DNA of 64,000 nt, taken from Sulfurospirillum sp. UCH001. GTDB taxonomy: Bacteria > Campylobacterota > Campylobacteria > Campylobacterales > Sulfurospirillaceae. The stretch spans positions 992,001 through 1,056,000 of the forward strand of contig NZ_AP014723.1 in the NCBI RefSeq assembly GCF_001548035.1, read 5' to 3'. The position numbers and the translations under genes were made by a program. The notes under the pieces are model-generated. The model was given only the letters and a program-made list of their open reading frames with translations, did not search any database and was not told where the DNA came from. Below, one piece after another: positions 15,319-61,342 of this stretch. Position 1 is the stretch's first letter; the number at the start of each line of letters is the position of its first letter.

Positions 15319-15335
15319 ACTTTAAGTGCATTGCC

Positions 15336-46093: not shown

Positions 46094-46155
46094 GAATAAC
46101 CTTTTAAATGATGAATATTTGAATAAGTATTGTACTTTGTTTTAGCTTTGAATGC

Positions 46156-46548
46156 CTATTTAAACTCTGCTTTATATGCATCGTCTAATATTGCCATAAA
46201 GGATGTTGCATCCATATATCCTGTATAACCTTCGATGATGCTATGGCGTGTTGGTGAAAGAATAGCATTGGCTGGAGTGTACTTGGTGCGTAAATCTTTA
46301 GGCAAAGATGGGTCATAAAGATCGATGGAGACAAAAACATATTTTTGCTCAATCTGCTTTCTATACGTTGCGTTACTAAATATTTCTCTATCCATCTGTT
46401 TACAGTAAGGACAATTTTCTGTTACGATGTTGACAAGAATGAGTTTTTTCTCTTTAATGGCTCTCGCACTTTCTTCTTCTAAGAAGCTCGCTTGTAGTGC
46501 AATCACACTCAAACATACTGTCATAAGAACTTTAGATAACCAACGCAT
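46156..46548 (-). CDS. Periplasmic thioredoxin-like protein
   Basis: A 130-aa protein with a signal peptide (cleavage near ALQA) and a thioredoxin fold of the SoxW/DUF255 type with active site TENCPYCKQMDREIF. The ATG follows AAGGAAG. A much longer upstream frame has no ribosome site and unlikely composition. The promoter region contains the ACAATA/TATTGT half-sites described separately. Confidence 0.8.
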   Translation of the reverse strand: MRWLSKVLMTVCLSVIALQASFLEEESARAIKEKKLILVNIVTENCPYCKQMDREIFSNATYRKQIEQKYVFVSIDLYDPSLPKDLRTKYTPANAILSPTRHSIIEGYTGYMDATSFMAILDDAYKAEFK

Positions 46549-46919
46549 TGATGGACTTCCTTTACAATAAAGTATTGTAGAACAATACAACACACATGAT
46601 ATAATAGAGATAAAATACGAGAAGAAGTATAAGGAATGTAATGAAAACACGAGTGTATTATGATGATATTTATTTTCTATAGTATCTAAAAAATATCCAT
46701 AAAATAGGCTTTTTATCCAATAAGTTTTCAAGAAAAAATATTGCAAACTAGGAAAAATAGTCAAGAAAATAGTCAAGAATTTTGAGCGTACGTCTCTTAA
46801 AAGGTAGAGTGTTGTTGGTAAAATACTGATGATCTGGGAGTGTAATATCTGCAAGTTTTTAATATTTCTATTTGGAACAAATATGTAATTGAAAAAATTA
46901 GGTTTCTTTTAATAGGGAA
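46549..46919. other. Gene-poor stretch with operator-like repeats
   Basis: About 370 nt without a convincing gene. At 46564-46588 three half-sites alternate with 3-nt spacers (ACAATA, TATTGT, ACAATA), forming two overlapping palindromes; GTATTGT-AGA-ACAATAC is the better one. A TATAAT (about 46606) and an SD-preceded ATG (46641) open a frame of only 13 codons (MKTRVYYDDIYFL), possibly the stub of a lost gene. The rest is AT-rich with short imperfect repeats (AATAGTCAAGAA-type at 46757-46780). Confidence 0.45.
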
Positions 46920-47042
46920 CTACACTTTGGTTCCTAATAATCGTTTCTTCAAGCAAAAAATTTCATAGTCATTTTGTTGTGCCATTATCCAATCAAACCA
47001 ACTCTGGTTAAAATGGAGATCGCTCAAATGTATTAAACGCAT
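46920..47042 (-). pseudogene. 5' stub of a metallophosphoesterase gene
   Basis: A 40-codon frame, MRLIHLSDLHFNQSWFDWIM and 20 more residues, ends at TAG. LIHLSDLHFN is the first metal motif (DxH) of calcineurin-like phosphoesterases and is followed by a WFDWI segment typical of one family. All later motifs are missing. The ATG overlaps the last codons of the PD-(D/E)XK-like gene, so it was the next gene in that operon before truncation. Confidence 0.6.
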
Positions 47043-47734
47043 TGGGCTTCTTCAATGATTAATTGCGATTGTTTTTCTTGTTCAAGTATCTCTTTTTCAT
47101 ACGTAAATTCTATAACGTCATTTTGAAATACTTTATTTTTAGAATGACATTTAGGCCAAACAACAGCTTTTTGAATAGAGCATCTATCCCATTCTAATCC
47201 ATAGATTTTCAGTAAGTCGTAAAAAAAATCTGCTTGTTCTTTGACAATAGCTTCAAAATCATTTACTTGTTTTTGAAGTTCTGTTAAAAACCTTGAAGAT
47301 TTTAGTTCAATAATATAGAGTTCATTATTTTTGCTAAAACCTAAAATATCATTGACAATTTTTTGATTTGCTTGATCATACATCACTAACTCGGATGTAA
47401 TAAATTGAATATTATCTCCAAACGGTAATAGATGAGAAGGATGACCCATTGCTTTGTCGATAATAGTCGCTTGCAAAAGTTTTTCAGGAGTTTTTCGTTT
47501 TGGTTTTTCTAATACTTTCTTAGGAGATATAAGTGTCATAAATTTTTCTTCTGTTTTTATACCAGAATATCCCATTTCTGGTGTTTTTGAGTCTAATGAT
47601 ACAAGTGATATCCCTTTCACATTGCCACGGCAATGCATTTTACCCTGATTATCTTTGTCTGTTTCATTAAGTTTATCCTTGTATTTTTCGTTCAATCTTT
47701 TTGCTAATTTGAAATACTTGAATGCGTCTTCCAT
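47033..47734 (-). CDS. Putative PD-(D/E)XK nuclease-like protein
   Basis: A 233-aa protein. Residues 125-150 read IVNDILGFSKNNELYIIELKSS, fitting the D...(E)xK core strand pair of the PD-(D/E)XK nuclease fold (Asp in NDILG, Glu and Lys in IELK). The N-terminus (1-90) is charged and unrecognised, the C-terminus helical. AAGGA precedes the ATG. Third gene of the MBL operon. Nuclease activity is predicted from the motif only. Confidence 0.6.
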   Translation of the reverse strand: MEDAFKYFKLAKRLNEKYKDKLNETDKDNQGKMHCRGNVKGISLVSLDSKTPEMGYSGIKTEEKFMTLISPKKVLEKPKRKTPEKLLQATIIDKAMGHPSHLLPFGDNIQFITSELVMYDQANQKIVNDILGFSKNNELYIIELKSSRFLTELQKQVNDFEAIVKEQADFFYDLLKIYGLEWDRCSIQKAVVWPKCHSKNKVFQNDVIEFTYEKEILEQEKQSQLIIEEAQCV

Positions 47735-47758
47735 CTTTAAATCCTTTGGTATATATTT

Positions 47759-48307
47759 TTAAAATATAGCTTTTGTGAGTGTTATTTGAACATCGACAGT
47801 ATAGTAATAATTTGATAAATAACATGCTTCTTCATTTGCAATATAGCCTCTTGTATTATCTATAAATTCCTGTGTCTCCTCATGAAGAGCATCATCAAAA
47901 ACGTCAATTTGTCCTTGGCTCATATCATCATCTAATTCTTCATATTTATTTTCTATTTTTGAACAATGATCTTCATACATATCGATATACATCGCATCAT
48001 CATGCTTATAAGAATCATACGCATAATGATCGTGAAAAACTACATCAACCTTCTCAATGGTATAATCCAAAGGAAAATCGCCTTCTAAAATAGTCTCTAT
48101 GTCATTGTAGATGAAGGAACTTTTATTGGTTTCAATATTCAAGTATTTTTTGACATTAGCGATAATATCTTCTTTAATATCTTCCATCTCTCCATCAATA
48201 CTTTCACTTTTAAATTCTGTTAAATCATGAATCTGATAGCCTCTGTAACTATTTTCTTTATAAACATTTTCAAACGTTAAAATGAGTGTTTCATTTGATT
48301 CTTGCAT
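47759..48307 (-). CDS. Hypothetical acidic protein
   Basis: A 182-aa, strongly acidic, tyrosine-rich protein (VVFHDHYAYDSYKHDDAMY, YEELDDDMSQGQID). The ATG follows AGGAAA; an upstream start would overlap the MBL gene and is rejected. No family recognised. The acidic character and placement between two nuclease-like genes would fit an inhibitor or DNA-mimic role, but this is speculation. Confidence 0.55.
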   Translation of the reverse strand: MQESNETLILTFENVYKENSYRGYQIHDLTEFKSESIDGEMEDIKEDIIANVKKYLNIETNKSSFIYNDIETILEGDFPLDYTIEKVDVVFHDHYAYDSYKHDDAMYIDMYEDHCSKIENKYEELDDDMSQGQIDVFDDALHEETQEFIDNTRGYIANEEACYLSNYYYTVDVQITLTKAIF

Positions 48308-48323
48308 GGTTTTTCCTAATGTC

Positions 48324-49565
48324 TTAAATAACAAATGGCATACCGTCTTCAAGGACAACGGTATTTTCAAAATGTTTACAAAACGCATCTTTATGTTCTG
48401 TATGAATAGGAATGAGAGCTTTTGGACTTAATGCTTCTGAAAACTTTTTTAAACTTTCAAGATCAGCATGTCCACTGGTATGTGCATAAATCCAGTTATG
48501 ATTTTCTTGCAGTTTTTGATATAGCTTGATCGTTTTTGCATCGCTAAATTCAGGCTTTAAATAACCAAGCCATTGAGAATAGATAATATTTGCACTCAGA
48601 ATATCAAGCTTGCTTAAAAGTTTTTCAATATGCCAAGGAGAAATTTTTACATAATAGCGTGATGGCTCTTTTTTAATATTATCGATTGAAATTATATTAC
48701 TAAAAAGTCTGTATTGAAAATCCCCAAAGTAGTCACGATTTTTTTTGATTTTCTCATAATAGCTTCCACCATACACTTTCAATACAAAAACATTTTTCCA
48801 ATCCATCGTTGGAATAGATGTTGAAACACTTGACATTTTTTCAAGTATCCATGCGGTGTACATATCGATTACAAAGATTTTTCCTGTTTTTTTACATGCC
48901 CTGTAAGCAGAAACGAGAGAGTCAATGTTTTGGGAAGAGCCTACCATAAACGTAATGGTTTCTGTATTTTTTAGCGTCTCAAGAATCTTGTTTTCGACAC
49001 TGATTTCATTGGGAAACTCTTCGTTGCTTCGTTGTAGCATCGTTCCTTCCATCAAAAGAAGATCAGCATCTTTGAGCTTCTTTTGTTTAAGCATGTTTTC
49101 AAAGAGTTTTGATTTTCTGCCATTAGCTCTAAAATCACCACTATAAATTACTTTTTTACCGTTATATTCAACTAAAAAAGCATACGCATCGACAGCACTA
49201 TGGTCAACCAAATAAGGAGTTATGGTTATATCTCCAATTTGAAAGGGTTTCCATGCTTCAAAATGATAGAACTTATTTTCCAGTAAACCTTGTCCCGTAA
49301 AAAGCTTCGTTGCATTCATCAGCTCTTTTGAAAGCTTCCCACAATAAATAGGAATCGTTGTTTCAACCGTTGTAATTTCGCCAAAATGATCTTGATGAGG
49401 ATGAGAGATAATAATGGCATCAACCTTTTTATTTGTAAAATGAAGTTTTTTTGACTCCAAATTTAGTGGTGTTCCATAATCAAATAAGAGAGTTGTATTT
49501 CGAGTTGAAAGCTCTATACAACTTCCACCAATTTCATTTGTTCCTTTGTGGATCGTTAGTGTCAT
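48324..49565 (-). CDS. MBL-fold metallohydrolase, RNase J/beta-CASP-like
   Basis: A 413-aa beta-lactamase-fold protein. It starts MTLTIHKGTNEIGGSCIEL and carries the metal motif SHPHQDHFGE (HxHxDH), VDHSAVDAYAF, IYSGDFRANG and a C-terminal HTSGHADLESLKKF. These features place it with RNase J/CPSF-type beta-CASP nucleases rather than with hydrolases of small substrates, though it is shorter than RNase J (about 550 aa) and probably lacks the RNase J C-terminal domain. First gene of a minus-strand operon whose promoter shares the operator at 49689-49704. Confidence 0.8.
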   Translation of the reverse strand: MTLTIHKGTNEIGGSCIELSTRNTTLLFDYGTPLNLESKKLHFTNKKVDAIIISHPHQDHFGEITTVETTIPIYCGKLSKELMNATKLFTGQGLLENKFYHFEAWKPFQIGDITITPYLVDHSAVDAYAFLVEYNGKKVIYSGDFRANGRKSKLFENMLKQKKLKDADLLLMEGTMLQRSNEEFPNEISVENKILETLKNTETITFMVGSSQNIDSLVSAYRACKKTGKIFVIDMYTAWILEKMSSVSTSIPTMDWKNVFVLKVYGGSYYEKIKKNRDYFGDFQYRLFSNIISIDNIKKEPSRYYVKISPWHIEKLLSKLDILSANIIYSQWLGYLKPEFSDAKTIKLYQKLQENHNWIYAHTSGHADLESLKKFSEALSPKALIPIHTEHKDAFCKHFENTVVLEDGMPFVI

Positions 49566-49688
49566 TATATACCTTACATAAAAAGTAGATCTTTTAAAAA
49601 TAAAGAGTCTTTATTTTTGAAAATTTACCGCAACGAGAATAATTTCTATAGTATACGGGATATGATATAAAATTTTAGCAAGTGACTA

Positions 49689-49704
49689 AGACAAATTTAT
49701 GTCT
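49689..49704. promoter_or_regulatory. Operator 1, AGACA-N6-TGTCT, with divergent promoters
   Basis: AGACAAATTTATGTCT is an inverted repeat between the MBL operon and the WYL gene. TATAAT (49716-49721) follows exactly 11 nt downstream on the plus strand. TAAAAT (49672-49677) follows exactly 11 nt downstream on the minus strand. One site could thus control both the MBL operon and the WYL regulator. Confidence 0.7.
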
Positions 49705-49765
49705 ATTTTTAAAAATATAATTACAATATTCATGTATAATCTGACAAATGTTCTAAAGGATATGT

Positions 49766-50689
49766 ATGCCAAAAGTCGAACGGCCATCAAATAATTCAAA
49801 ATGGGAACGTATCAACACTATTTACGAGCTTTTAAAACAATCATGCGATGGTATGAGTATTCAAGATCTCTCAAAACAAATGGATGTTAGTACAAAGACC
49901 ATTCAGCGTGACTTGTATGAAGTTTTAGGTGAGTATGGGGCTGTTAAACAAGGACGAATGTGGAAGCTTGATAACAAAAAAGCCGAAGATAATCTTAATT
50001 CCAATGAGCGCATTATTCTCGGTATTTTAGATGAGATGGCAAAAAATGCTGGCAGTAGTTTTTATGGCAAGGCACATTCTCTGCTGAAACAAATCTCTCA
50101 ACAATTAGAACATCCTATTTTTGCGAATGTCGAGAGTGAATCCTTGGATGAAAGCCATATAGAGCTTTTTTCTTTGCTGGAAAAAGCGATTAAAACAAAG
50201 CACACCGTTAGCTTTACCTACAAAAAACATGTTTTTGACGTTCAACCACTTAAATTAGCATTTTTTGACAGCTTTTGGTACCTCTTAGCACTTGATATCA
50301 ATGAAGAGAATAAATTTAAAAAGTTTTATCTTAAATCCATTAATAGTCTCACAATCCAAGATAATACATTTGCGATCAATACAACGTTGGAAGAACGTTT
50401 AAAAAAGGCAAATTCCATTTGGTTTGATTTGGATAAAGAGCTTTTTGATGTGCATTTACTCATTGATAAAGAAGTAATAACCTATTTTGAGCGTAAACCA
50501 CTGAAAGGACAAACAATTATAGGCAAAGATGCTGATGGTTCAGTAGAGATTATTGTACCTATCACGCATGAAATGGAAATCGTGCCTTTGATCTTTTGGT
50601 ATGTCCCTTACATTAAAGTCTTAGAACCTCAATGGATTGCCGACATCGTGAAAGAAAAAATACACGCTTATCATCAAAGTATTCAATAA
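49766..50689 (+). CDS. WYL-domain transcriptional regulator
   Basis: A 307-aa regulator with an N-terminal winged helix (residues 10-70; MSIQDLSKQMDVSTKTIQRDLYEV is the recognition region), a WYL domain (residues 140-215, FDSFWYLLALDI with the FWYL core) and a WCX-like C-terminal extension (PLIFWYVPYIKVLEPQWIADIVK). WYL domains sense ligands, often single-stranded nucleic acid, and regulators of this class (BrxR, CapW, DriD, PafBC) control defence or DNA-damage genes. Operator 1 precedes it, indicating autoregulation. Confidence 0.9.
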   Translation: MPKVERPSNNSKWERINTIYELLKQSCDGMSIQDLSKQMDVSTKTIQRDLYEVLGEYGAVKQGRMWKLDNKKAEDNLNSNERIILGILDEMAKNAGSSFYGKAHSLLKQISQQLEHPIFANVESESLDESHIELFSLLEKAIKTKHTVSFTYKKHVFDVQPLKLAFFDSFWYLLALDINEENKFKKFYLKSINSLTIQDNTFAINTTLEERLKKANSIWFDLDKELFDVHLLIDKEVITYFERKPLKGQTIIGKDADGSVEIIVPITHEMEIVPLIFWYVPYIKVLEPQWIADIVKEKIHAYHQSIQ

Positions 50690-50692
50690 AGA

Positions 50693-50708
50693 AGACATCT
50701 TTATGTCC
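50693..50708 (+). promoter_or_regulatory. Operator 2, AGACA-N6-TGTCC, before the sirtuin gene
   Basis: AGACATCTTTATGTCC begins 3 nt after the WYL stop. A TAAAGT hexamer (50720-50725) follows exactly 11 nt downstream, the same phasing as operator 1. The sirtuin GTG lies 60 nt beyond the operator. Confidence 0.65.
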
Positions 50709-50768
50709 GTAAAATGAGATAAAGTTCTGTTAATGCAGACTTATAGTAGTGGACATAAAGGATACAAA

Positions 50769-51596
50769 GTGCAACTTGAAGAAACCATAAACATTGCAAA
50801 GCAACTGATTGAAAATGCCGAAGCGATTCTCATCACAGCAGGTGCTGGCATGGGTGTCGATAGTGGCTTACCCGATTTTAGGGGAGAGGAGGGCTTTTGG
50901 AGAGCTTATCCACTTCTAAAAGATAAAGGACTTCACTTTGAAGATATGGCTACGCCAAAACTTTTTAAGACAGATCCTTCTCTTGCTTGGGCTTTTTATG
51001 GTCAAAGGCTCAATTTATACCGTGCTACTACGCCTCATAAAGGCTTTGATGCTTTAAAAGAGCTTGTTCATTCAAAAAATAACAATTATTTCATCTATAC
51101 TTCCAATGTTGATGGGCACTTTCAAAAAGCAGGATTTGATGAAGAGAAAATCGTTGAAGTTCATGGAAGTATCCATCATTTGCAGTGTTTAACTCCATGT
51201 TCAAAAAAGATATGGCGTGCAAACGATACGTTTGTTAACGTTAATTTAGACACATTTCGTGCTCTTAACATACCTTCATGTCCTTATTGTGGTTCTATCG
51301 CTCGGCCGAATATACTGATGTTTGGAGACTGGTCTTATTGGAACGAAAAACGTTTTAATCAACAAATCGCAAGATATCGTAAATGGCTTAAGCAAAATAA
51401 AACAGCCCATATCGTTGTAATAGAGATTGGCGCTGGAACTGCGATTCCAACCATACGTTATGAAAGTGAAAGAGTCTCGAAACAGTTTTTGAATGCATAT
51501 TTAATTCGTATTAATCCATATGATAGTTTTATCGATAAAAGCGTCAAAAGAGGGCTCAGTATTCCCTTGGGTGGACTTGATGGAATAAAAAAATAG
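50769..51596 (+). CDS. Sirtuin (SIR2 family NAD-dependent protein deacylase)
   Basis: A 275-aa sirtuin with an intact NAD site (AILITAGAGMGVDSGLPDFRG), TSNVDGHFQKAGF, catalytic His in EVHGSIHHLQC, a zinc ribbon (CLTPC and CPYCG) and VVIEIGAGTAIPT. The substrate pocket lacks an obvious SIRT5-type Tyr-Arg pair that I can place. The GTG is chosen because AAAGGA precedes it; an ATG 12 codons upstream has no ribosome site. It is under operator 2 and presumably WYL control. Acts on acyl-lysine of proteins; ADP-ribosylation or NAD depletion are alternatives. Confidence 0.87.
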   Translation: MQLEETINIAKQLIENAEAILITAGAGMGVDSGLPDFRGEEGFWRAYPLLKDKGLHFEDMATPKLFKTDPSLAWAFYGQRLNLYRATTPHKGFDALKELVHSKNNNYFIYTSNVDGHFQKAGFDEEKIVEVHGSIHHLQCLTPCSKKIWRANDTFVNVNLDTFRALNIPSCPYCGSIARPNILMFGDWSYWNEKRFNQQIARYRKWLKQNKTAHIVVIEIGAGTAIPTIRYESERVSKQFLNAYLIRINPYDSFIDKSVKRGLSIPLGGLDGIKK

Positions 51597-51681
51597 TAGC
51601 TAGTTTATCAAAGAATTATGTTTAGAAATTTTAAGCGATACTTTAGCTGTAGGGAGTTAAAGAACAGTCTTAAAAGTTACA

Positions 51682-52182
51682 TTATTTAGCAGAAAAAACA
51701 CACTTTTCATCAAACCATGCGAGTTCATCGATGTACATTTTCCCAGAAATTTCAGGCATCAAATTGCGATGAGAATCATAGTTATAAATTCTCACTTCTT
51801 TGAATTCTTCCAAAAACTCTCTTTTTTTTGTTAGAGAATTTATATTGGAAGAATTCCCAGCTGGCCAATGACTAAAAATGAGTAATTGTTCTGCTTTTGT
51901 TATAAGTGTGTTCCACTCTTCCTTACTTGGTTGCTTTTTATTGAATAGTCTGCCAACATATACTTGAACTTGTTCTTCATCAGAATTGTAAATCCAATTC
52001 TCTTGCAATATACGTTTTGCAAATGTTTGTTCACATGCTTTGCCGATTTAGAGTAGCACATGTGAACCGTACACTGGATGAGTACCATAAATCTGATAAA
52101 CTCCATGGTCAGTATCTCCTTTTAAAGATTTTACTTTTTCAAGAGAATAAGGACCTTTCCATTCGATGTATATTTCTGTCAT
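51682..52182 (-). pseudogene. GIY-YIG nuclease gene with internal stop
   Basis: One continuous frame from MTEIYIEWKGPYSLEKVK to DELAWFDEKCVFSAK is interrupted by a single TAA (52048-52050) at codon 45. The first motif is GVYQIYG, and the second would be LLYIGKA with the stop replacing the Tyr of YIG (CTC TAA ATC GGC AAA GCA). Downstream CEQTFAKRILQ is typical of GIY-YIG helices. Frame and length (166 codons) are otherwise intact, so the lesion is recent or a sequencing error. Confidence 0.75.
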
Positions 52183-52276
52183 GATTTATTTTCCATTTAT
52201 TCATTATTCCTATCTATGAGTAATTATAAAACAAAAAATCATAATTTTATATACTTTTAAAAGGTTTTTTAACCAT

Positions 52277-53716
52277 TTAAGAATCCACCATAAGCTCAAT
52301 AACGGCTTCAAGGCTTTCACTAACAGCCTTATAATTTTCTACACCATAGCCACCACTCAAACACATCATGATCGGTATATGACGTTTTTTAGCTTCAGTG
52401 AAGATCATGATGTCTCGTTGCTTTAGCCCTTCTGCTGAGACTGCCAATTTACCAAGAGGGTCGCCTTTGAGTATATCGCTGCCGCCATTGTAAAAAATGA
52501 AGTCGGGTGCTATGTTATCTATGAGTGGCGCAACAGAGTGTTTCAATAGGGTGAGATACTCTTTATCTGAAGTAAACAATGGAATTCCTATCAAAGTAAA
52601 ACGTCCATCTTTACTCTTTTTTGTCGTTCGTAAGTCTGCTTGAAACGTGTTATACATATCAAAGATATAAAAATTATCCATGTGTGTTGCAAATTCGATA
52701 ACGCCATCGCCTAAATGAGCGTCAAGGTCAATGTAAAGAATTTTCAATGATGGGTTAGCCTTTCTTAATTGTAGTGTTCCAAGCGCGTAGTCATTGAAAA
52801 AACAAAAACCGCCGCCTTTGTTTTTATGCGCATGATGGAAGCCTCCGCCAAGATTTATCGCCCAACCAACCTCTAAAGCCAAAAAAGAGGCTTGAATTGT
52901 TCCATTAGCCATTGCACGAAGAGGATCAATCAAATAAGCATTGCTCATAGGTGCAGGGACTAATTTTAAAACATCTAAATTCAATACCGAACTTATCGTA
53001 TGTTTATCGCTTCTGACGTTTAGAAGGTATTGACGTGTATGATAAGCATTCAGTTCTTCATCTATCAATGGCTCTATGTGCCGTGCGTCCAAGCGATACT
53101 CAAACGATAAGTTATGAGCAATGCGATCAAACTTTCTTAGATCTAAAGGATAGTTACTCTCACGAATTGCATCTTCCACAACAGATGGCAGATAAAAATT
53201 ATAAGTATGTAAATCATACATAATGGGTAGAGCCTTTTTTTGTAGAGAATTCATTTTAGGGAAAGCGACAATTTCCTCACAATATTGATATCTAGGAATA
53301 AGCTCCCAATGAACGTGTGATATGCTTAAAATCTCATCCCAGTCGAGATTTGATGTCACCAATGTACGAAGCAAATCGCAATGAAATTCACCATAAAAAG
53401 GATGATCAAGCATCGTTTCATACTCATTGTGATTTTCTCCATCATTTAAGTGTGAGTACTTTGTTTTATCTGATATATTTTTTAATCTATCTTCCTTTTC
53501 CCATAAAGGATCGTCAAATGAATCATTATAGAAGGCAATTTTGACATCTAGTTCGTAATCATACGACCCCTCTTTTTTTAACCTTAACGCCTCTTTCAAT
53601 GCTCCATCTAACACGACTGCCTTTTCAACAATCGCTTTTTCAATCTGCATTAAATAAGCATTGAGATTTCGAATTGCGGCGATCGTTTCATGTGTTACAT
53701 TATCGTTTTTGTGCAT
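52277..53716 (-). CDS. Class IV (HDAC11-like) histone-deacetylase family protein
   Basis: A 479-aa protein. The C-terminal 290 residues form an arginase-fold deacylase with all zinc-site motifs: GGGFHHAH, GGGFCFFND, YIDLDAHLGDG (zinc Asp and His), YNGGSDILKGDPLG (zinc Asp) and LSGGYG. DILKGDPLGKLAVS is closest to HDAC11/class IV enzymes, which remove long acyl chains. The N-terminal 160 residues are unrecognised and could be a targeting domain. ATG after AGAGG; a GTG 9 nt upstream lacks a site. It overlaps the FtsZ-C-like gene by 17 nt. Likely substrates are acylated proteins in this locus (inference). Confidence 0.87.
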   Translation of the reverse strand: MHKNDNVTHETIAAIRNLNAYLMQIEKAIVEKAVVLDGALKEALRLKKEGSYDYELDVKIAFYNDSFDDPLWEKEDRLKNISDKTKYSHLNDGENHNEYETMLDHPFYGEFHCDLLRTLVTSNLDWDEILSISHVHWELIPRYQYCEEIVAFPKMNSLQKKALPIMYDLHTYNFYLPSVVEDAIRESNYPLDLRKFDRIAHNLSFEYRLDARHIEPLIDEELNAYHTRQYLLNVRSDKHTISSVLNLDVLKLVPAPMSNAYLIDPLRAMANGTIQASFLALEVGWAINLGGGFHHAHKNKGGGFCFFNDYALGTLQLRKANPSLKILYIDLDAHLGDGVIEFATHMDNFYIFDMYNTFQADLRTTKKSKDGRFTLIGIPLFTSDKEYLTLLKHSVAPLIDNIAPDFIFYNGGSDILKGDPLGKLAVSAEGLKQRDIMIFTEAKKRHIPIMMCLSGGYGVENYKAVSESLEAVIELMVDS

Positions 53717-54083
53717 CGTTGTCACCTCTTAATCGATAAAAAAATATGCTCAGATGAATTTCATCAAGGCTCAATGTTTCATTGGTTTGAGTATCAAAGG
53801 TAAGATCATACTCATCGGCTACATCCATGATTTTTCCCATGGCTTCGCTAAGTTCATACAATGGATAACTTGGATGCATTTCAAACGAGATATACCACTG
53901 TGTATAACTTAAGAGCATTAATGTTTCTTTGTTTAAAAGGCTCAGTAGTTTACATGTAGCGTTAAGTGCTGCATGGTCGCACAAAGAGGCATTTTGCGTG
54001 ATTAAAATAAACTCATTGTCATGAGATAGATCGATTCCAAAGTTTTTTGCAGTGTTGAAAACAGCTGAATTTAAATATTTCAT
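53700..54083 (-). CDS. FtsZ C-terminal-domain-like protein (second half of a split FtsZ homologue)
   Basis: A 127-aa protein. Residues 60-117 (WYISFEMHPSYPLYELSEAM and onward to DEIHLSIFFYRL) follow the FtsZ C-terminal domain pattern of strand, L-E helix with I/A spacing, then strand with D-E-I-x-V-x-I ending. The T7 loop NxDxxD that completes the GTPase site in FtsZ is missing at the N-terminus. It overlaps the GTPase-like half by ATGA, so the two are made together and probably assemble. The assignment is by pattern and should be tested by structure prediction. Confidence 0.6.
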   Translation of the reverse strand: MKYLNSAVFNTAKNFGIDLSHDNEFILITQNASLCDHAALNATCKLLSLLNKETLMLLSYTQWYISFEMHPSYPLYELSEAMGKIMDVADEYDLTFDTQTNETLSLDEIHLSIFFYRLRGDNDAQKR

Positions 54084-54619
54084 CTACATTCCTTTTCACG
54101 TGGAATTGCTTCATAGAGCATTTTGTAAAAACCATCCATATAGGTATTTATGTCTTGATGCATGCAATCGTGAATGAGGTTTCGATCTGAAAAAATTTTA
54201 TGTTGCACATCTAACTTATGAAAGGTTCGCTCCATCTCTTTTGCGCATAGATGTTTGTTTTTCCCTTCAAAATCAAAAGGTCGTACCGCTATAATAAATA
54301 ACTTTTTTCTAGATTTTGAAGAACTGTTGGCTAAGATTTTTTGCAATACTGTCGTACTGTAACCCCCTCCAATACCAATAAAAACAACACATCGTGTGTA
54401 AGTACTCATAACAAGTTCAAAATCGAATGTATGAAAGAATGTGTCAAAGGATTGAATTACATGTCCGTGTTTATCTGTCAGAAATGTAGGCATTGTGTAT
54501 TTATTGGGTAAAAATTCATCTGTGATAACTAATATATTATACTCGGTGATAGTATTGAGGTATTTTGTTGAATTAAGCATATGTTGTTCAAAAGAGCCAA
54601 TACCTAGCGCTAGCTTCAT
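54080..54619 (-). CDS. FtsZ GTPase-domain-like protein (first half of a split FtsZ homologue)
   Basis: A 179-aa Rossmann-type protein aligned with the FtsZ/tubulin GTPase domain. MKLALGIGSFEQHMLN stands in for the T1 loop, and VVFIGIGGGYSTTVLQKIL for the tubulin signature GGGTG(S/T)G (residues 80-95, degenerate). LFIIAVRPFDFEGK (residues 107-120) matches the very conserved FtsZ VVTKPFxFEGK, and SDRNLIHD matches NDKLL. It ends after the region of helix H7. GTP binding is doubtful. It is the first gene of the unit with the C-terminal half and the deacylase, under operator 3; AAAGGAT precedes the ATG. Confidence 0.68.
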   Translation of the reverse strand: MKLALGIGSFEQHMLNSTKYLNTITEYNILVITDEFLPNKYTMPTFLTDKHGHVIQSFDTFFHTFDFELVMSTYTRCVVFIGIGGGYSTTVLQKILANSSSKSRKKLFIIAVRPFDFEGKNKHLCAKEMERTFHKLDVQHKIFSDRNLIHDCMHQDINTYMDGFYKMLYEAIPREKECR

Positions 54620-54663
54620 AAAAATCCTTTTAAGTTTTATGAAGTTAGTATAAGCTATTTTAT

Positions 54664-54679
54664 GGACATTATTGTGTCC
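54664..54679 (-). promoter_or_regulatory. Operator 3, GGACA-N6-TGTCC, before the split-FtsZ/deacylase operon
   Basis: GGACATTATTGTGTCC. On the minus strand TATACT (54647-54652) follows exactly 11 nt downstream, then the start codon of the FtsZ-like gene at 54619. Both half-sites match the other three operators. Confidence 0.68.
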
Positions 54680-54699
54680 AATATATTAAAAAGATACTA

Positions 54700-55230
54700 C
54701 TATTGAATCACTTTAGATAGATCAGTATCGTTTTCAATATAATCCACTAAAGCTGTTCCAAATGGATAAGGATCTTTTACATGTATAACTTCTTTTTTTA
54801 CGCAATTTCCGCCAGTAATATAATAAGCTACACCATTTTTATCTTTATCACTATTAGGCAGTCTACAGCTCGTTACGATAACGCCACTAAACCATGATGC
54901 TTTTATTCTCAGCTCAACGTTAGAGTCTGAATGATCAAGCGCTTCACTGTTAGGATTTGATAAAAAAAGATCATCAAAGCGTTGTTCTGTTTTATTGAAA
55001 AGTGATGTCAGAAATAAAGTATGTTCACTTAGTTGCCAATAACATATAAAAATTCTTTCTTTAGATTGAGGTTTAAATCCATCATTTGGTAAGCCTTTCT
55101 CTTTGAGTAAAGTGACTAAAGGAGAAACATATTTTCTTTTATCTTTTAACGTTTCTTGAACCGATATAATGTATAAATTTATACCACTCTCAACATCTAT
55201 TAATTTATCTCGCTTAAGAGGAAAACTCAT
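54700..55230 (-). CDS. Hypothetical protein
   Basis: A 176-aa soluble protein I do not recognise. ERIFICYWQLSEHTLFLTSLFN and GVIVTSCRLPNSDKDKNGVAYYITGGN look like mixed alpha/beta segments. No signal peptide or clear catalytic motif. No operator copy precedes it, so it is probably read from the ankyrin operon 76 nt upstream. Confidence 0.5.
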   Translation of the reverse strand: MSFPLKRDKLIDVESGINLYIISVQETLKDKRKYVSPLVTLLKEKGLPNDGFKPQSKERIFICYWQLSEHTLFLTSLFNKTEQRFDDLFLSNPNSEALDHSDSNVELRIKASWFSGVIVTSCRLPNSDKDKNGVAYYITGGNCVKKEVIHVKDPYPFGTALVDYIENDTDLSKVIQ

Positions 55231-55305
55231 GTGTGCTCCTTTGATCTTATTATCATGACATCATAACAAATTTATAAGGCATCTTTCTGAAATAAGGCAT
55301 TACTC

Positions 55306-55716
55306 TCATAATGATTTTTGATCATTCACGACTAAAAGAAAGTCCTCAAACACATTTATTTTAGGCTCCCCAACACTGTAAAAAGGTTGTAACTTTGCAT
55401 ACTGTTTTAAGAGAATAATGACATCGCGATCGTTTTTAAAATAAGCCCATTTTGAAGCCGTCCAACCATCGTGATCTTTTTCATAGATAGATGCTTTATA
55501 GTACAATAATAGTTTGATGATTTTAAGATGAGACTTGGCACACGCCAGCATCAAAAGCGTTATATTTGAAGAGTCTTTTGCATTTGGATTTACTCCAACC
55601 ATCAGCAATAACCTCACCATAATGACACGATCATTTTTGACTGCTTCAATGATCTTTGCATCACTATAATTGATTAAAGCGTTACGTAATTTTTTTAATG
55701 GACTGCGTATCATCAA
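55306..55716 (-). CDS. Ankyrin-repeat protein
   Basis: A 136-aa protein with about three ankyrin repeats: IIEAVKNDRVIMVRLLLMVGVNPNAKDSSNITLLMLAC, then HLKIIKLLLYYKASIYEKDHDGWTASKWA (each within residues 20-100). Likely a protein-binding adaptor. AAAGGA precedes tandem ATGs. It overlaps the upstream gene by 4 nt. Confidence 0.8.
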   Translation of the reverse strand: MMIRSPLKKLRNALINYSDAKIIEAVKNDRVIMVRLLLMVGVNPNAKDSSNITLLMLACAKSHLKIIKLLLYYKASIYEKDHDGWTASKWAYFKNDRDVIILLKQYAKLQPFYSVGEPKINVFEDFLLVVNDQKSL

Positions 55717-56117
55717 ATTTTCCTTTGTTGTTTTTCAACGTCATAGTGTTTTATGACATACTCTGTCTTTGATATTTTTCTCTTTAACCAGTTCTTTTTA
55801 GTGATCAAACCTTGCTTCTCAGCGAATCGTAGATAAAGCATTAAGCGAAGTTGCATCGGAAATTTTTTCTTTTCCATTTGGAGTGTTTTGCACAATTTAG
55901 CAAGCGTTATAGGTGAACCATAACGAAAAAAAGCTCTATAAAGCATCACGTACGCAAAACTCTCAAGAAGGTCGATACCCCATTCTTTTGCGAGGGCATC
56001 GATACTTGGCTCTTTTGGTGTTGTTTTACGTTCTAGAAAATAGTGTTTTGTGAGCTTTTTAACCGCTTTTTTATCGAGCAATAACGCTTCGATAAAGAGA
56101 GATGAATGTTCTACCAT
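55713..56117 (-). CDS. Hypothetical basic protein, possible winged helix
   Basis: A 134-aa basic, helical protein (PITLAKLCKTLQMEKKKFPM, LMLYLRFAEKQGLITKKNWLKRK). The pattern of helix, helix and a LI-T-K wing suggests a DNA-binding winged helix, but this is uncertain. It overlaps the ankyrin gene by 4 nt and lies 9 nt after a possible 42-aa ORF. Confidence 0.5.
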   Translation of the reverse strand: MVEHSSLFIEALLLDKKAVKKLTKHYFLERKTTPKEPSIDALAKEWGIDLLESFAYVMLYRAFFRYGSPITLAKLCKTLQMEKKKFPMQLRLMLYLRFAEKQGLITKKNWLKRKISKTEYVIKHYDVEKQQRKI

Positions 56118-56126
56118 CTCTAATTC

Positions 56127-56255
56127 CTATACCAGAAGCGCATGAGTTAGCACTTGGATTGTGCAACATGGCAGCTCTTTTTTCAATAATTTATTGTTTT
56201 CAAATTTACTAAATTCAGTGCTATGTTGAGTGAATGCCAAATTCTGTAATTGCAT
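56127..56255 (-). CDS. Possible 42-aa leader ORF
   Basis: A 42-codon frame beginning MQLQNLAFTQHSTEFSKFEN with AGGGA 8 nt upstream, ending TAG 9 nt before the next start. It lies between operator 4 (minus-strand -10 TATCAT at 56289-56294) and the ankyrin operon, so it would be the first gene of that unit. It has two adjacent cysteines. Not recognised. Confidence 0.38.
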   Translation of the reverse strand: MQLQNLAFTQHSTEFSKFENNKLLKKELPCCTIQVLTHALLV

Positions 56256-56305
56256 ATGATTATCCCTGAGTTACGATTTTAATGTGTCATGATATCTTTA
56301 AAATG

Positions 56306-56321
56306 GGACATAAATATGTCT
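56306..56321. promoter_or_regulatory. Operator 4, GGACA-N6-TGTCT, with divergent promoters
   Basis: GGACATAAATATGTCT. TAAAAT (56333-56338) lies exactly 11 nt downstream on the plus strand toward the DnaA-like gene. TATCAT (56289-56294) lies exactly 11 nt downstream on the minus strand toward the ankyrin operon. Architecture as operator 1. Confidence 0.7.
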
Positions 56322-56370
56322 AGCTTAGGTGTTAAAATCGATATAAAATTTTTCAAGAAAAGGATTTAGT

Positions 56371-57117
56371 ATGTCAAGTGAAACTAGCGCTACAGTGCTA
56401 AATAAGATGTATACATTTGATAATTATGTGGTTGGGAATTTTAATCACGTATCCTACACCATAGCTAAACTAGTAGCAGACAAACCAGGTGTTATGTATA
56501 GTCCAGTTTTCATCTATGGTCCAATAGGCGTTGGCAAAACCTATCTTATTCATGCTATTGGTAATTATGCTCAAAGTAAAGGCAAAATCGTTATTTATGC
56601 GACGATTGAGCAGTTTATGAATGACTTTACCTATAATCTTCGCAACCAATCAATGGATCGTTTCCGTGAAAAATACCGTAGTTGCGATGTTTTACTTATC
56701 GATGACATACAAGATTTGGCCAATAAAATTCAAACACAAGAAGAATTTTTTCATACCTTTAATGAACTTTACGCTGCAGGTAAACAGATTGTATTAACCT
56801 CAGATAAACCACCAAAGATGATTAATGGTCTTGAAGATCGTTTAAAAAGTCGTTTTATAGGTGGATTTATATCTGATATTGGGATACCAGAACTTGAAGA
56901 TAAAATAGCTATGATTAAAAAGAAATGTGATATTTTTGAATTCTCTTTGGGTGATGATATTATCAATGATATTGCAGTAAACATTGGTGATGATATCCGT
57001 GAAATTGAGAGTTTTGCTATTAATTTAAATGTTTTGAAAAACTTGATACATCAAAAAAACATGATTGATATTATTCAAAAAATTTTAAAAAATTTTTTGA
57101 ATATGCCAATTGAATAA
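56371..57117 (+). CDS. DnaA-like AAA+ ATPase lacking the DNA-binding domain
   Basis: A 248-aa protein matching DnaA domain III. Walker A is GPIGVGKT (residues 50-57), the RFREKYRSCDVLLIDDIQDL segment includes Walker B (108-112), sensor 1 is LTSDKPP, the Arg-finger region is EDRLKSRFIGG, and sensor 2 is DDIREIE (R210). DnaA domains I/II and the DnaA-box-binding domain IV are absent, so it resembles a Hda/DnaA-decoy type protein. AAAAGGA precedes the ATG. Under operator 4. It might modulate initiation by joining DnaA oligomers (inference). Confidence 0.85.
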   Translation: MSSETSATVLNKMYTFDNYVVGNFNHVSYTIAKLVADKPGVMYSPVFIYGPIGVGKTYLIHAIGNYAQSKGKIVIYATIEQFMNDFTYNLRNQSMDRFREKYRSCDVLLIDDIQDLANKIQTQEEFFHTFNELYAAGKQIVLTSDKPPKMINGLEDRLKSRFIGGFISDIGIPELEDKIAMIKKKCDIFEFSLGDDIINDIAVNIGDDIREIESFAINLNVLKNLIHQKNMIDIIQKILKNFLNMPIE

Positions 57118-57122
57118 ACATT

Positions 57123-57476
57123 ATGAACAATGAATTAACAACCACTAACAACGATCATCAACTCGTATTGGCAAGATCCAGAGTCTTATTAAAGATAACG
57201 AAAAAAATACTTGTCAATATACAAAAAAGTAACCCAAGTATAAAATACCCAATAACATTAATACATAGTGATAATGTTGTTGAATCTGTTGCAATTTCTT
57301 CTGATGGAAAGTATATGATTTCTGGAAGTAGAGATGCGACTATTAAGCTTTGGGATTTACCTAGTGGAAAAGAGATTCAGATATTTAAAGGGCATAAAGA
57401 TTGTATCAATTCTATTGCTATTTCTCATGACAGCAATAGAATTGTATCTGCAAGTGACGACAAAACAATTAAAGTA
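57123..57476 (+). pseudogene. WD40 protein truncated by an IS3-family insertion
   Basis: A 118-codon remnant starting MNNELTTTNNDHQLVLARSR with two WD40 blades (VESVAISSDGKYMISGSRD...IKLWD and INSIAISHDSNRIVSASDD...IKVW). A beta-propeller needs about seven blades, so most of it is lost. The frame continues into the IS for another 48 codons of non-homologous sequence. It begins 5 nt after the DnaA-like stop and is probably translationally coupled to it. Confidence 0.78.
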
Positions 57477-57565
57477 TGGAATGACCCCACAACACTAGAC
57501 ACTCTTGAAACTGTTAATACGGTCGATAATGACCACATGAAACATCAAGAGGAGAAAGTAATTCC

Positions 57566-57850
57566 ATGGCAAATAAACTATACACAGACGAGTTCAAACA
57601 AGAGGCAGTCAATCAAATTGTAAAAAATGGCTATCCCATTAAAGATACCGCACAAAGATTAGGAGTGCATCCTGATTCACTCAAAGCATGGATAAAAATC
57701 TATAGTAATCCTCAAAGTACCTCACAACACCAAGCTTCCAAAGATTTATCATCCGAGAATAGGAAGCTCAAAGCAGAATTAAAAAGAGTCACCGAGGAGC
57801 GTGACATTCTAAAAAAGGCCGCAGCGTACTTTGCCAAGAATCAAAAGTAA
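57566..57850 (+). CDS. IS3-family transposase OrfA
   Basis: A 94-aa HTH protein (MANKLYTDEFKQEAVNQIVK, IKDTAQRLGVHPDSLKAWIK) with a C-terminal leucine-zipper-like helix. The heptamer A-AAA-AAG at 57811-57817 is in the correct frame for -1 ribosomal slippage. After the shift the frame stays open into orfB, so an OrfAB fusion can be made. Confidence 0.92.
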   Translation: MANKLYTDEFKQEAVNQIVKNGYPIKDTAQRLGVHPDSLKAWIKIYSNPQSTSQHQASKDLSSENRKLKAELKRVTEERDILKKAAAYFAKNQK

Positions 57851-57888
57851 AGTACGCCTTCATTAAAGAGTATAAGCCATTTTATCCC

Positions 57889-58731
57889 GTGCGAAGAATG
57901 TGCAAAGCTTTGCAAGTCCATTTTAGTGGTTATTATGCATGGAATAAACAACCAGAATCAAAACGTGATAGAGATAATAAAGTGGTCTTGCAACACATTA
58001 AAGAGGCTTATGAACACAGTGGTCGTATCTATGGATATCGAACTGTTACCAAAGATCTTATAGCATCAGGTATCAGTGTGAATAAAAAAAGAGTCGCAAG
58101 ACTTATGAACATAGCCAAACTCTTTGGTGCAGGTGTCAAACAGAAAAAACCTCGTTATAAAAAAGGGCAGAGACATTTGGCACATCCTAACCATCTTGGG
58201 CAGTGTTTCAATGTTCAAGAGCCAAATCACACATGGGTAACAGATATAACCTATATCAAAACACATGAAGGATGGTTTTATTTAGCGGTTGTATTAGACC
58301 TTTTCAGTAGAAAAGTTGCTGGATGGGCAACAAGTCATCGCATGACAACACAGTTAGCTCTAAAAGCTCTGGAAATGGCAACCTTTAGACAAAAACCACA
58401 TCATGAAGTTATTGTACACTCTGATCAAGGATCACAGTATAGCTCTTACGAGTGGCAAGCACTCCTAAAAAAATACAACCTGATTCCTAGCATGAGCAGG
58501 CGAGGCAACTGTTATGATAATGCAGTGGCTGAAAGCTTTTTTAAAACATTTAAGCGTGAATGTGTCAAAAAACAGATTTATATTACACGAGAGGAAGCAC
58601 AATCAGACATATTTTATTACATTGAAATGTTTTATAATTCAACCAGAAGGCATAGCTATCTTGGTTATATTTCGCCCAATGAATTTGAAAAAAGATATAA
58701 TGAGAAATTAAATATGGCTTCGCAGAATTAG
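57889..58731 (+). CDS. IS3-family transposase OrfB (DDE integrase)
   Basis: The frame reads from the slip site at 57811; the first ATG is at 57889 (280 aa). HTH_21 (HSGRIYGYRTVTKDLI) is followed by the rve integrase core with DDE residues in WVTDITYI, VIVHSDQGSQYSS and NAVAESFFKTFKRE, and the usual STRRHSYLGYISPNEFE end. It appears intact, so the IS may be active. Confidence 0.93.
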   Translation: MRRMCKALQVHFSGYYAWNKQPESKRDRDNKVVLQHIKEAYEHSGRIYGYRTVTKDLIASGISVNKKRVARLMNIAKLFGAGVKQKKPRYKKGQRHLAHPNHLGQCFNVQEPNHTWVTDITYIKTHEGWFYLAVVLDLFSRKVAGWATSHRMTTQLALKALEMATFRQKPHHEVIVHSDQGSQYSSYEWQALLKKYNLIPSMSRRGNCYDNAVAESFFKTFKRECVKKQIYITREEAQSDIFYYIEMFYNSTRRHSYLGYISPNEFEKRYNEKLNMASQN

Positions 58732-58760
58732 AGTGTGTCTACAAATGTGGGGTCATTCCA

Positions 58761-59578
58761 GAGAGCTCATTCAAAAAATATTACATGTAAAACAAGAGAT
58801 ACATCATTTTACTACAGCAGAAAAAAGAGCTCGTTTTCAACATTTGAGAGAGAAGTATGCAGCTTTAAAACAAGCTATTGATATGAAAAAAACATATCAA
58901 TCTTCTCTTGAAGAAGCACTGGCAAAACTTAATCCTTTAGATGATACCTACCATGAACTTTATGAAAAAATAAAAGTTTTAAAAGAAGAATTAAATGTTG
59001 CAGAAGAGGCTTTGAATCAAAAATATCAGAAAGCGATAAAAGAGTTTGACGAAGATCCTGACATGCAAGAGTACGAAGAAACTAAACGTATGTATGAAGA
59101 ATTTAGAAATAATTTTGAAGAAGAACTCAATGCTAAATTATTTGATCTTAGTGAAAGCGAGAAAAAAGAACTTAAACAGCTCTATAGGCAAGCCAGTAGA
59201 CTTTGCCATCCAGATATCGTAGCTGATGAACTGAAAACTCAAGCGCATGAGATGATGCAAAAACTCAATGATGCCTATAGTGAAAAAAATTTAACAATTG
59301 TTAAAGAGATACTTTTCGCGTTACAGCATGATATTGGCTTTACTGTTGCAAGTAATAATATAAATAATAAAGAAAAACTTAAAGCAAAGATTGTCAAACT
59401 TAGAAAAAAGCTTAAAATCACTGAAAACGAAATAACAGAAATAAAATTAGATGAAACATTTGAAATTATTAAAGATTTGGATAATTGGGATACATACTTT
59501 GAAGAGCTTAAAGGGAATCTTGAATATGAACTCATGTCTCTTATGAATAATTATAATGCACTTAGGTTTTATTCTTGA
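58761..59578 (+). pseudogene. J-domain/coiled-coil protein, 5' end lost at the IS
   Basis: An open frame runs in from the right IS repeat (the first possible starts, GTG 58733 and ATG 58745, are IS sequence). After it comes about 270 residues of chromosome-derived protein. A long coiled coil is followed by a DnaJ-like J domain (LKQLYRQASRLCHPDIV with the HPD motif) and another charged coil. The gene's real N-terminus is missing. It may be the distal part of the same WD40 gene or the next gene downstream. Confidence 0.65.
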
Positions 59579-59604
59579 GATGAAGAAATACTCTTGGTAG
59601 ATAA

Positions 59605-59886
59605 ATAAAACGTCTTGACACACAAACAAGACGATTTCTGTATAAGATAGAAGTTTCAAAACCAAGTAAGCAGACCCGCGCAAAGATTTGGAAATCAAAA
59701 GTTCCAGATCTCTCAAATGAGATCATTGCATCCATTGCTCATTATGAATTAAGTGGTGGTCAAATTGAAAATGTGGCACGTAAGTGTTTACTAGATGCCA
59801 TATTAAATTTAAAAGAGATATGTGTTGAGGATTTGAAAAAATCATGTACTGATGAAATTCAGTTCAAAGAAGAGAAATGTTCATAA
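59605..59886 (+). pseudogene. C-terminal relic of an AAA+ ATPase
   Basis: About 93 codons without a start, reading RRFLYKIEVSKPSKQTRAKI, then WKSKVPDLSNEIIASIAHYE, then LSGGQIENVARKCLLDAILN. The RRF..KIE..KP...R..IW and ELSGGQIENV.RK pattern is the C-terminal part of classical AAA ATPases that often accompany ankyrin, WD40 or J-domain genes. Walker motifs are gone, so only the end survives. Confidence 0.68.
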
Positions 59887-59938
59887 CTAGGTTTTATTTA
59901 ATACCACATTGTCTATAATCACACAAAAGGATAAGCCC

Positions 59939-60400
59939 ATGCCACAGCTACTTTATACTATTGAGGAATACATAGCCAAACACCGTAAAAAAGACTCTAT
60001 TTGGATGGTGTTCAATACTCGTTACAATGAAATACACGCGCTACACCAGAAAATTTCTGATGAGGAAGCCTTTAGTTTTTATAACCGTCAATTCACAGAT
60101 GAAATAGCGCGAGAAAACTTTTTAGAATATATGAAAACCAATTTTCCGCAAACAGCACTCTTAGAAGTATTTGATTTAGTAGGTATAGAATGGCTTCAAT
60201 GGCCCTATCTTGGAAGCATTGCTATTGATACTGACATCGGTAGTGAGGTTTATAATGCACTTTGTGAGAAGTATGGCGATGCCTATAAAGACCCCATATC
60301 TACAAACCAAGCACTTTGGGTTATGGAATATAAAGACGCCAAAGTAATCCATGAAAAACGGTGTAAAGCCATTGATGAGGAATTTGGAGATGATGAATGA
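59939..60400 (+). CDS. Hypothetical protein
   Basis: A 153-aa soluble, acidic protein beginning MPQLLYTIEEYIAKHRKKDS after AAAGGA (an ATG 10 codons upstream lacks a site). FSFYNRQFTDEIARENFLEYM and EWLQWPYLGSIAIDTD are its most distinctive stretches. Not recognised. It is followed 22 nt later by the HAD gene, probably the same operon. Confidence 0.55.
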   Translation: MPQLLYTIEEYIAKHRKKDSIWMVFNTRYNEIHALHQKISDEEAFSFYNRQFTDEIARENFLEYMKTNFPQTALLEVFDLVGIEWLQWPYLGSIAIDTDIGSEVYNALCEKYGDAYKDPISTNQALWVMEYKDAKVIHEKRCKAIDEEFGDDE

Positions 60401-60422
60401 TGTATTTCTTAAAGAATTTTAA

Positions 60423-61331
60423 ATGAATAATATCATCGCACTTATTTTTGACTTTGATATAACCCTCTCACCAGAATTCCAGCAACAGGTCATTTTTGAT
60501 CATTGGGGTGTTGATGCAGAGACGTTTTGGCGTGAATGTGGGGTATTGGGAAAGCAAGGATACGATCTAGAGCACTCTTATATGCGTAATATGATCGATT
60601 ATGGTAGACGCGATAGTAAATACGCACTCACCAATGAAAAATTACGTGAATTTGGGCGTCAGGTGGAACTATATCAAGGGCTTAGCCGTAAAGATGGGTT
60701 CACCTCGGTTTTTGATGATCTTAAAACACTTCTTAACAAAAAAGAGTTCGCCGAACATAATATAGAGTTAGAGTGCTACTGTATCAGTGGTGGACTTAAA
60801 CCGATGATAGAAGGCGCTTTTGAAGCACATGATCTTAATGGTTATTTTAAAGAAATATTTGCATGCGATTTTGATGAAGACGACACGGGAAAGCTCGGGT
60901 ACATCAAAGAAACCGTTGGCCATACCATAAAAACTCAAAAGCTTTTTATGATAGCTAAGGGAGTTTCTCCTAAAAATGGCGATCATCCTTCACTTGTAAA
61001 TGAAGTGATCCATCACTACCGAGTACCATTTGAGAACATGATCTTTTTGGGAGATGGACAAACGGATATTCCCGCCTTTTCCTTGGTCAATAAAAATGGC
61101 GGTAAATCAATTGCCGTATATCGTGAAGAGAAAACTAGTGATGGCTCAATAGATGAAGAACACACCCTTGAAACTTATCTAAATGGCTATAAACTCGCCA
61201 TCGAAGCCAATCGTGCAGAGCAATTATTGCCTGCTGATTATTCGTTTGGTAAACCGCTAAAAATGGCTTTGCTTGGGTATGTTGAGAGTGTGGCAAAAAA
61301 TATTATGAATAAATCGAATAGTAAAATTTAA
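60423..61331 (+). CDS. HAD family phosphatase
   Basis: A 302-aa HAD-superfamily protein. Motif I is IFDFDITLS (Asp10/Asp12), motif II is CYCISGG, motif III is GKLG, and motif IV is FLGDGQTDIPAFSLV. This is closest to phosphoserine-phosphatase-like HADs with a helical cap. The weak sequence of the cap does not reveal the substrate. It ends 11 nt before the first DUF262 gene. Confidence 0.82.
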   Translation: MNNIIALIFDFDITLSPEFQQQVIFDHWGVDAETFWRECGVLGKQGYDLEHSYMRNMIDYGRRDSKYALTNEKLREFGRQVELYQGLSRKDGFTSVFDDLKTLLNKKEFAEHNIELECYCISGGLKPMIEGAFEAHDLNGYFKEIFACDFDEDDTGKLGYIKETVGHTIKTQKLFMIAKGVSPKNGDHPSLVNEVIHHYRVPFENMIFLGDGQTDIPAFSLVNKNGGKSIAVYREEKTSDGSIDEEHTLETYLNGYKLAIEANRAEQLLPADYSFGKPLKMALLGYVESVAKNIMNKSNSKI

Positions 61332-61342
61332 AGGATATATTT

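Follow-up and report, generated by a model that had tools for sequence, protein, structure and literature searches.

Which protein reads the palindrome RGACA-N6-TGTCY that recurs at promoters in Sulfurospirillum sp. UCH001, and does it switch the adjoining genes on or off? The question arises from a 64,000-nt stretch (hereafter, the window; bases 992001–1056000) of a 2.6-Mb genome assembled as one contig, in which a gene for a WYL-domain regulator lies among four copies of the palindrome. We consider it likely that these belong to a regulon with twelve operators and about 17 transcription units, carried by a 55-kb mobile island, and that their regulator is the island's own WYL protein, acting as an activator in the manner of DriD.

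A search of the whole window returned exact matches at 49689, 50693, 54664 and 56306, the four sites named in the original prediction, and no fifth. The chance level is 0.17 matches per 64 kb in dinucleotide shuffles, close to the earlier estimate of about 0.2, and four matches were reached in none of 100 shuffles, which bears out the claim that the clustering is unlikely to be random. Operator 1 (AGACAAATTTATGTCT, 49689–49704) lies between a metallo-beta-lactamase operon on the minus strand and the WYL gene on the plus strand, with a −10 hexamer TAAAAT (49672–49677, minus strand) toward the former and TATAAT (49716–49721, plus strand) toward the latter. Operator 4 (GGACATAAATATGTCT, 56306–56321) is also two-sided, with TATCAT (56289–56294, minus strand) toward an ankyrin operon on the minus strand and TAAAAT (56333–56338, plus strand) toward a DnaA-like gene on the plus strand. 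Operator 2 (AGACATCTTTATGTCC, 50693–50708), 5′ of a sirtuin gene, is followed by TAAAGT (50720–50725, plus strand), and operator 3 (GGACATTATTGTGTCC, 54664–54679), 5′ of a deacylase operon, has a phased hexamer on the operon side only, TATACT (54647–54652, minus strand). All six hexamers listed in the original prediction are present, each exactly 11 nt from the operator edge (N11), and the two-sided arrangement between divergent genes holds for sites 1 and 4. With the −10 element taken to start at −12, the operator covers −39 to −24, has its centre at −31.5 and occupies the place of the −35 region, as had been proposed.

Operator 2 and its −10 are identical in the relative G015. A −10-like TACTTT at operator 2 points back into the WYL gene; it is probably a chance match, since no gene lies in that direction. 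A second −10-like TATAAT (49735–49740, plus strand), N30 from operator 1, may also serve the WYL gene, judging from its sequence. An Rfam search of 46–64 kb of the window gave no match.

A probable regulon on one mobile island

The whole genome contains 17 matches to RGACA-N6-TGTCY, and 12 of them fall between 1041689 and 1085126, inside a single 55-kb insertion (P about 4e-17 for 12 of 17 within 55 kb). Every one of the 12 is flanked at N11 by TANNNT, on one side or on both, and 18 of the 24 sides have it; at other distances the mean is 1.0 sides (binomial P about 1e-20 for N11). Phased −10 hexamers are found only there, none of the five matches elsewhere in the genome having one. The prediction thereby withstands the first of its stated refutations, a wide scatter of matches over the genome. 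The four sites of the window are real, but the original prediction understated the extent of the system, as eight further operators lie in the same island beyond the window. These eight were unseen in the initial observation and therefore provide an independent test: by themselves they have TANNNT at N11 on 11 of 16 sides (P about 2e-12). One additional island arm is phased at N12 (1083282, minus strand). Neither the island nor the adjoining 44 kb on its left contains a one-mismatch operator with a phased −10, and the island of this genome holds no N5-spaced operator.

The spacer from operator to −10 shows little conservation and carries almost no information, whereas operator and hexamer are conserved, which argues that the N11 register is kept by function. 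Copying of a promoter cassette was rejected as the source of the constant phasing on the same ground. Among the 19 phased hexamers of the island, 18 face an open reading frame (ORF). Because one transposase and one 64-aa ORF are among the 18, we count about 17 credible transcription units for the 12 operators.

The island extends from about 1038100 to 1092760 in the genome, its part within the window being 46100–64000 (left edge approximate), and holds all 12 phased operators. The genes that flank it are 54.7 kb apart here but 0.1–1.2 kb apart in the relatives G013, G014, G016, G023, G019 and G008; since they are near-adjacent in relatives, the regulon occupies a single insertion. At the right end of the island lies an ORF that looks like a tyrosine integrase, an assignment made by reading rather than by profile search. 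A recombinase gene and the absence of the insertion from the same place in relatives identify the element as a mobile island.

Operator and WYL gene across Campylobacterota

We scanned 399 genomes of the order for the composite pattern RGACA-N6-TGTCY-N11-TANNNT without protein input and located this WYL clade by a separate profile search. Clusters of composite sites appeared in several families. The 133 listed sites leave out the source genome and G015; 50 of them lie no more than 10 kb from a gene of the WYL clade, about 45-fold above the 1.1 expected if sites were distributed uniformly. The clade is present in 19 of 25 genomes with at least two composite sites versus 63 of 372 (P 1e-9), a linkage whose P is overstated because divergent arms were counted twice and related genomes are non-independent. 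In the strongest clusters the WYL protein is 49–57% identical to that of the window.

A second sample was assembled from the protein side and comprised 80 loci chosen by WYL homology from Arcobacter, Aliarcobacter, Campylobacter, Helicobacter, Sulfurovum, Sulfuricurvum, Sulfurimonas and Sulfurospirillum. Genes in the comparative loci were called mechanically, two partly overlapping collections were collapsed by hand, and genomes of the same genus are non-independent. The half-sites of RGACA-Nk-TGTCY are separated by k = 6 in 56 cases and k = 5 in 39, any other k occurring 0–5 times. At k = 6 sites, strict −10 hexamers peak at N11 both in close orthologs (24, with at most 4 at any other distance) and in distant ones (11, with at most 2); at k = 5 sites, 17 are found at N11 and 8 at N12. 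A gene starts in the direction of 131 of 144 phased sides versus 74 of 168 unphased sides (P 2e-19; 156 non-redundant sites). The composite motif recurs beside WYL orthologs and 5′ of orthologous targets, among them AAA ATPase, sirtuin and HDAC-like deacylase genes, in Arcobacter/Aliarcobacter, Campylobacter, Sulfurovum, Sulfuricurvum, Sulfurimonas and other genomes of the Sulfurospirillum family, so that the conservation in related loci proposed as a check on the original prediction is present across genera.

Counted by locus group, the families that recur under the operator are an AAA ATPase (21; best PADLOC match IetA), WYL proteins (17), a family represented by a PD-(D/E)XK nuclease (10), sirtuins (9) and HDAC-like deacylases (9), together with smaller families that are unknown. 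The clusters also contain HNH, Fic, SLOG and uracil-DNA-glycosylase-like genes. Cargo of this kind is found in defence and stress islands.

On two Arcobacteraceae plasmids, 6 of 7 and 4 of 5 operators are phased, and the exception on each lies 79 bp 5′ of the WYL gene. Plasmid-borne versions of the regulon are seen in L171 (Aliarcobacter cibarius plasmid pACIB) and L172 (Arcobacter plasmid p82_LEO_62), where SLOG, Sir2, PD-(D/E)XK, DUF262, DUF2779, VWA, Fic and restriction-modification genes lie near the WYL gene. The genome G322 encodes a distant WYL protein (L062, about 5649–6557; 24% identity) with the same operator 78–130 bp from the gene start and a further two close by; the operator grammar may therefore reach other WYL clades. 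In Helicobacter burdigaliensis and H. valdiviensis (L101 and L119), N5 operators lie just 3′ of the WYL gene with the −10 at N12, possibly a clade-specific register. A phage origin of the clade found no support, as viral contigs gave one distant relative (28%).

A proposed activator in place of the −35 element

The WYL gene (49766–50689, plus strand) was assigned from Pfam matches, a structure model, Foldseek similarity to DriD and linkage to the operator. Its product has the order winged helix-turn-helix, three-helix linker, WYL, WCX, with Pfam matches to HTH, WYL and WCX; in the model, helices at residues 79–120 lie between the winged helix-turn-helix and WYL domains and are of low confidence. 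Foldseek searches of the PDB ranked DriD chains first (E 4.5e-15, full-length), followed by PafBC and then by BrxR and CapW.

In Caulobacter crescentus, DriD (PDB 8tp8, 9pfv) acts as a WYL homodimer to activate a DNA damage response that is separate from SOS. Its site, GAC-N7-GTC, overlaps the −35 region and keeps one constant distance to the −10 across all its promoters (PMC12340889). DriD does not activate its own gene, and it activates only one side of its bidirectional promoter. The window protein shares with DriD the order of winged helix-turn-helix, helical linker, WYL and WCX, a GAC/GTC pseudo-palindrome (GAC-N8-GTC here, N7 or N8 in orthologs), a site over the −35 region at a constant distance to the −10 (N11 at 12 of 12 island operators and at the peak in orthologous loci), and a bidirectional promoter region beside the regulator gene. 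The two systems differ in other respects: the proteins are about 18% identical, DriD has about five known promoters, all chromosomal and serving DNA repair and cell-cycle genes, whereas the 12 operators here are restricted to a mobile island with other cargo, and several of them are phased on both sides while DriD activates a single side.

PafBC of mycobacteria is a heterodimeric WYL activator that works by sigma adaptation, with only the PafB HTH touching promoter DNA (PMC11804915). It resembles the present system as a WYL activator that replaces −35 recognition and makes use of a −26 motif whose position in the promoter is constant. However, PafB and PafC form a heterodimer, whereas the source genome has a single match to this WYL clade in the profile search, with no second WYL paralog of the clade encoded alongside, and the operator is two-fold symmetric. 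SiwR of Mycobacterium smegmatis (PMC10693628) is likewise a homodimeric WYL activator with a palindrome 5′ of the −10, but it serves one operon with other cargo, and its 19-bp palindrome lies between −35 and −10.

We propose that a ligand, by analogy a single-stranded nucleic acid released by DNA damage or phage replication, would occupy the WYL domains and that the ligand-bound protein, presumably a homodimer like DriD, would bind the RGACA-N6-TGTCY palindrome. At about −39 to −24 the dimer would stand in for the −35 element and anchor RNA polymerase on a promoter that has a −10 hexamer only, its position held at N11. The symmetry of the site would let a single operator drive two divergent promoters. 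What the analysis suggests is an activator, responsive to stress or phage, that turns on the whole island.

The WYL protein might instead act by repression, obstructing RNA polymerase at the −35 region and freeing the island genes on ligand binding, like BrxR and CapW. These repressors of BREX and CBASS (PMC9122601, PMC9122588), WYL dimers of defence islands that bind inverted repeats, are the best-studied defence-linked WYL regulators; an operator over the −35 region could shut out the polymerase, and the WYL gene of the Arcobacter group has its own operator out of the phased position. Yet a repressor does not need an exact spacing to the −10, and N11 is kept at 12 island sites and at more than 100 promoter sides elsewhere. 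CapW binds sites that overlap the −10, and BrxR a site immediately beyond it, with one or two sites per system, whereas the operators here lie 11 nt upstream; both proteins are also weaker structural matches than DriD and PafBC. We infer activation because the register is fixed and the operator, like that of DriD, sits over the −35 region, because DriD and PafBC lead the structural ranking, and because CapW and BrxR sites fall on or after the −10; repression seems to us unlikely.

Several observations weigh against a DriD-like activator as the regulator of the island. The global TM-score to DriD reaches no more than about 0.47, and prediction of the three-helix linker is poor; the modest TM-scores probably reflect this linker and a different orientation of the domains. 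Promoters of Campylobacterota often lack a −35 element, so its absence is by itself no argument for activation. The operator clusters of G021 and G112 lack a close WYL gene in their vicinity; that of G300 is 400 kb from the WYL gene. Finally, the promoter of the WYL gene is phased here but not in the Arcobacter plasmids. Four WYL promoters of the Arcobacter group carry their −10-like TAAAAT at N30, as the second hexamer here does, and lack one at N11. In G015 the operator of the WYL gene is degenerate; there the WYL protein is 96% identical and the sirtuin operator intact, and the sequence upstream of the WYL gene is different. Since the WYL promoters of the Arcobacter group and of G015 depart from that of the window, autoregulation appears to vary among relatives, which would match the lack of own-gene activation by DriD. 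The upstream half of the WYL intergenic region in G015 (L040, about 15120–15330) is unrelated to that of the window, which suggests a module swap precisely at the WYL promoter.

The operator could also belong to another regulator that travels with the island, the WYL gene being merely one of its targets. The WYL gene does have an operator of its own, and around some operator clusters a close WYL gene is missing from the nearest 18 kb. However, no second DNA-binding family recurs among the tabulated operator-linked families, the GAC/GTC half-site is that of DriD, and linkage to the WYL clade far exceeds chance; we regard another regulator as quite improbable. There is very little to recommend a −35 element of an alternative sigma factor: constant spacing to the −10 is typical of sigma-factor promoters, but the dyad works in both directions, its arms are separated by N5 or N6, the −10 hexamer is of the ordinary TATAAT-like type, and the palindrome tracks a WYL gene. 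Equally far-fetched are chance palindromes, or one promoter cassette copied with mobile DNA and devoid of a present regulatory role, for although the island has duplicated insertion sequences and paralogous genes, the flanks as well as the spacer are unconserved around a conserved operator and −10, and across many genera the motif accompanies one set of gene families and one WYL clade.

A broader form of the DriD-like activator reading, which we put forward tentatively, is that Campylobacterota harbour a previously undescribed mobile regulon, borne on islands and plasmids, in which the WYL activator and its symmetric operator make up a portable, bidirectional promoter module. Genes as unrelated as those for AAA ATPases, sirtuins, HDAC-like deacylases and nucleases would join one nucleic-acid-sensing response by acquiring the module, and one dimer might fire either or both divergent promoters. 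Our literature search found no WYL regulon described for the phylum, including Campylobacter, Helicobacter and Arcobacter. The operator, register and target list of a phylum-wide WYL regulon can be read from sequence alone, and RGACA-N5/6-TGTCY-N11-TANNNT can serve as a search motif for new members. The activation geometry of DriD would be widened from about five promoters in one species to more than 100 promoter sides in many genera. How a mobile island holds varied defence- or stress-type cargo silent and then co-activates it becomes a general question that can be tested.

Genes served by the operators

The original prediction joined six named units in the window into one regulon. Pfam matches identify the metallo-beta-lactamase, WYL, Sir2, Hist_deacetyl, ankyrin and DnaA ATPase products, but the protein described as a split FtsZ has no Pfam match. 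The metallo-beta-lactamase-fold gene (48324–49565, minus strand; beta-CASP/RMMBL-like, by Pfam) is the first of a three-gene operon, assigned by spacing, whose other genes lie at 47759–48388 and 47033–47734 on the same strand. The Sir2-family gene (Pfam) was called at 50733–51596 on the plus strand; given the phased −10, its true start is more likely a GTG 3′ of AAAGGA, near 50770.

The deacylase operon (52277–54619, minus strand, three genes, also assigned by spacing) encodes a 179-aa protein (54080–54619), a 127-aa protein (53700–54083) and a histone-deacetylase-fold protein (52277–53725; Pfam Hist_deacetyl, 1.7e-45). The 179-aa protein, only putatively FtsZ-like, folded from its single sequence with a pLDDT of 41, too low to be informative. 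The ankyrin operon (55306–56117, minus strand) comprises genes for a 134-aa protein and an ankyrin-repeat protein (Pfam Ank). A 42-aa ORF (MQLQNLAFTQ..., 56255–56127, minus strand) may open its transcript, as it lies between operator 4 and the gene for the 134-aa protein. On the other side of operator 4, the DnaA-like gene (56371–57117, plus strand) encodes 248 aa with a DnaA-type AAA+ ATPase domain (Pfam Bac_DnaA, 2.3e-57); the separate C-terminal DNA-binding domain of DnaA was not matched in Pfam. A WD40-repeat ORF 3′ of this gene (57123–58731) is seemingly truncated by an IS3-type transposase pair.

Beyond the window, genes under the operators code for a gamma-glutamyl-cyclotransferase-like protein, a WG-repeat protein, a bacterial PH-domain protein and an AAA ATPase. 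Two operons are served as well, one for 122-aa and 208-aa proteins and the other including a DUF2779 protein. The remaining targets are a PcfJ-like gene together with its divergent 226-aa neighbour and a divergent gene pair, one product of which has a sub-threshold match to FtsK-gamma. A large gene pair (L017:1484–7262), which reads like an AddB/AddA-type nuclease-helicase, stands beside DUF262-like genes and has no operator of its own. Another IS3-like element is present in two identical copies (L017:10806–11986 and L018:10164–11344). Similar proteins of unknown families also occur in pairs (59909–60400 and L018:5151–5615; 55713–56117 and L017:9994–10371; L018:4462–5034 and L018:15235–15783), and these paired proteins of the island, some of them under operator control, suggest duplication of cargo modules.

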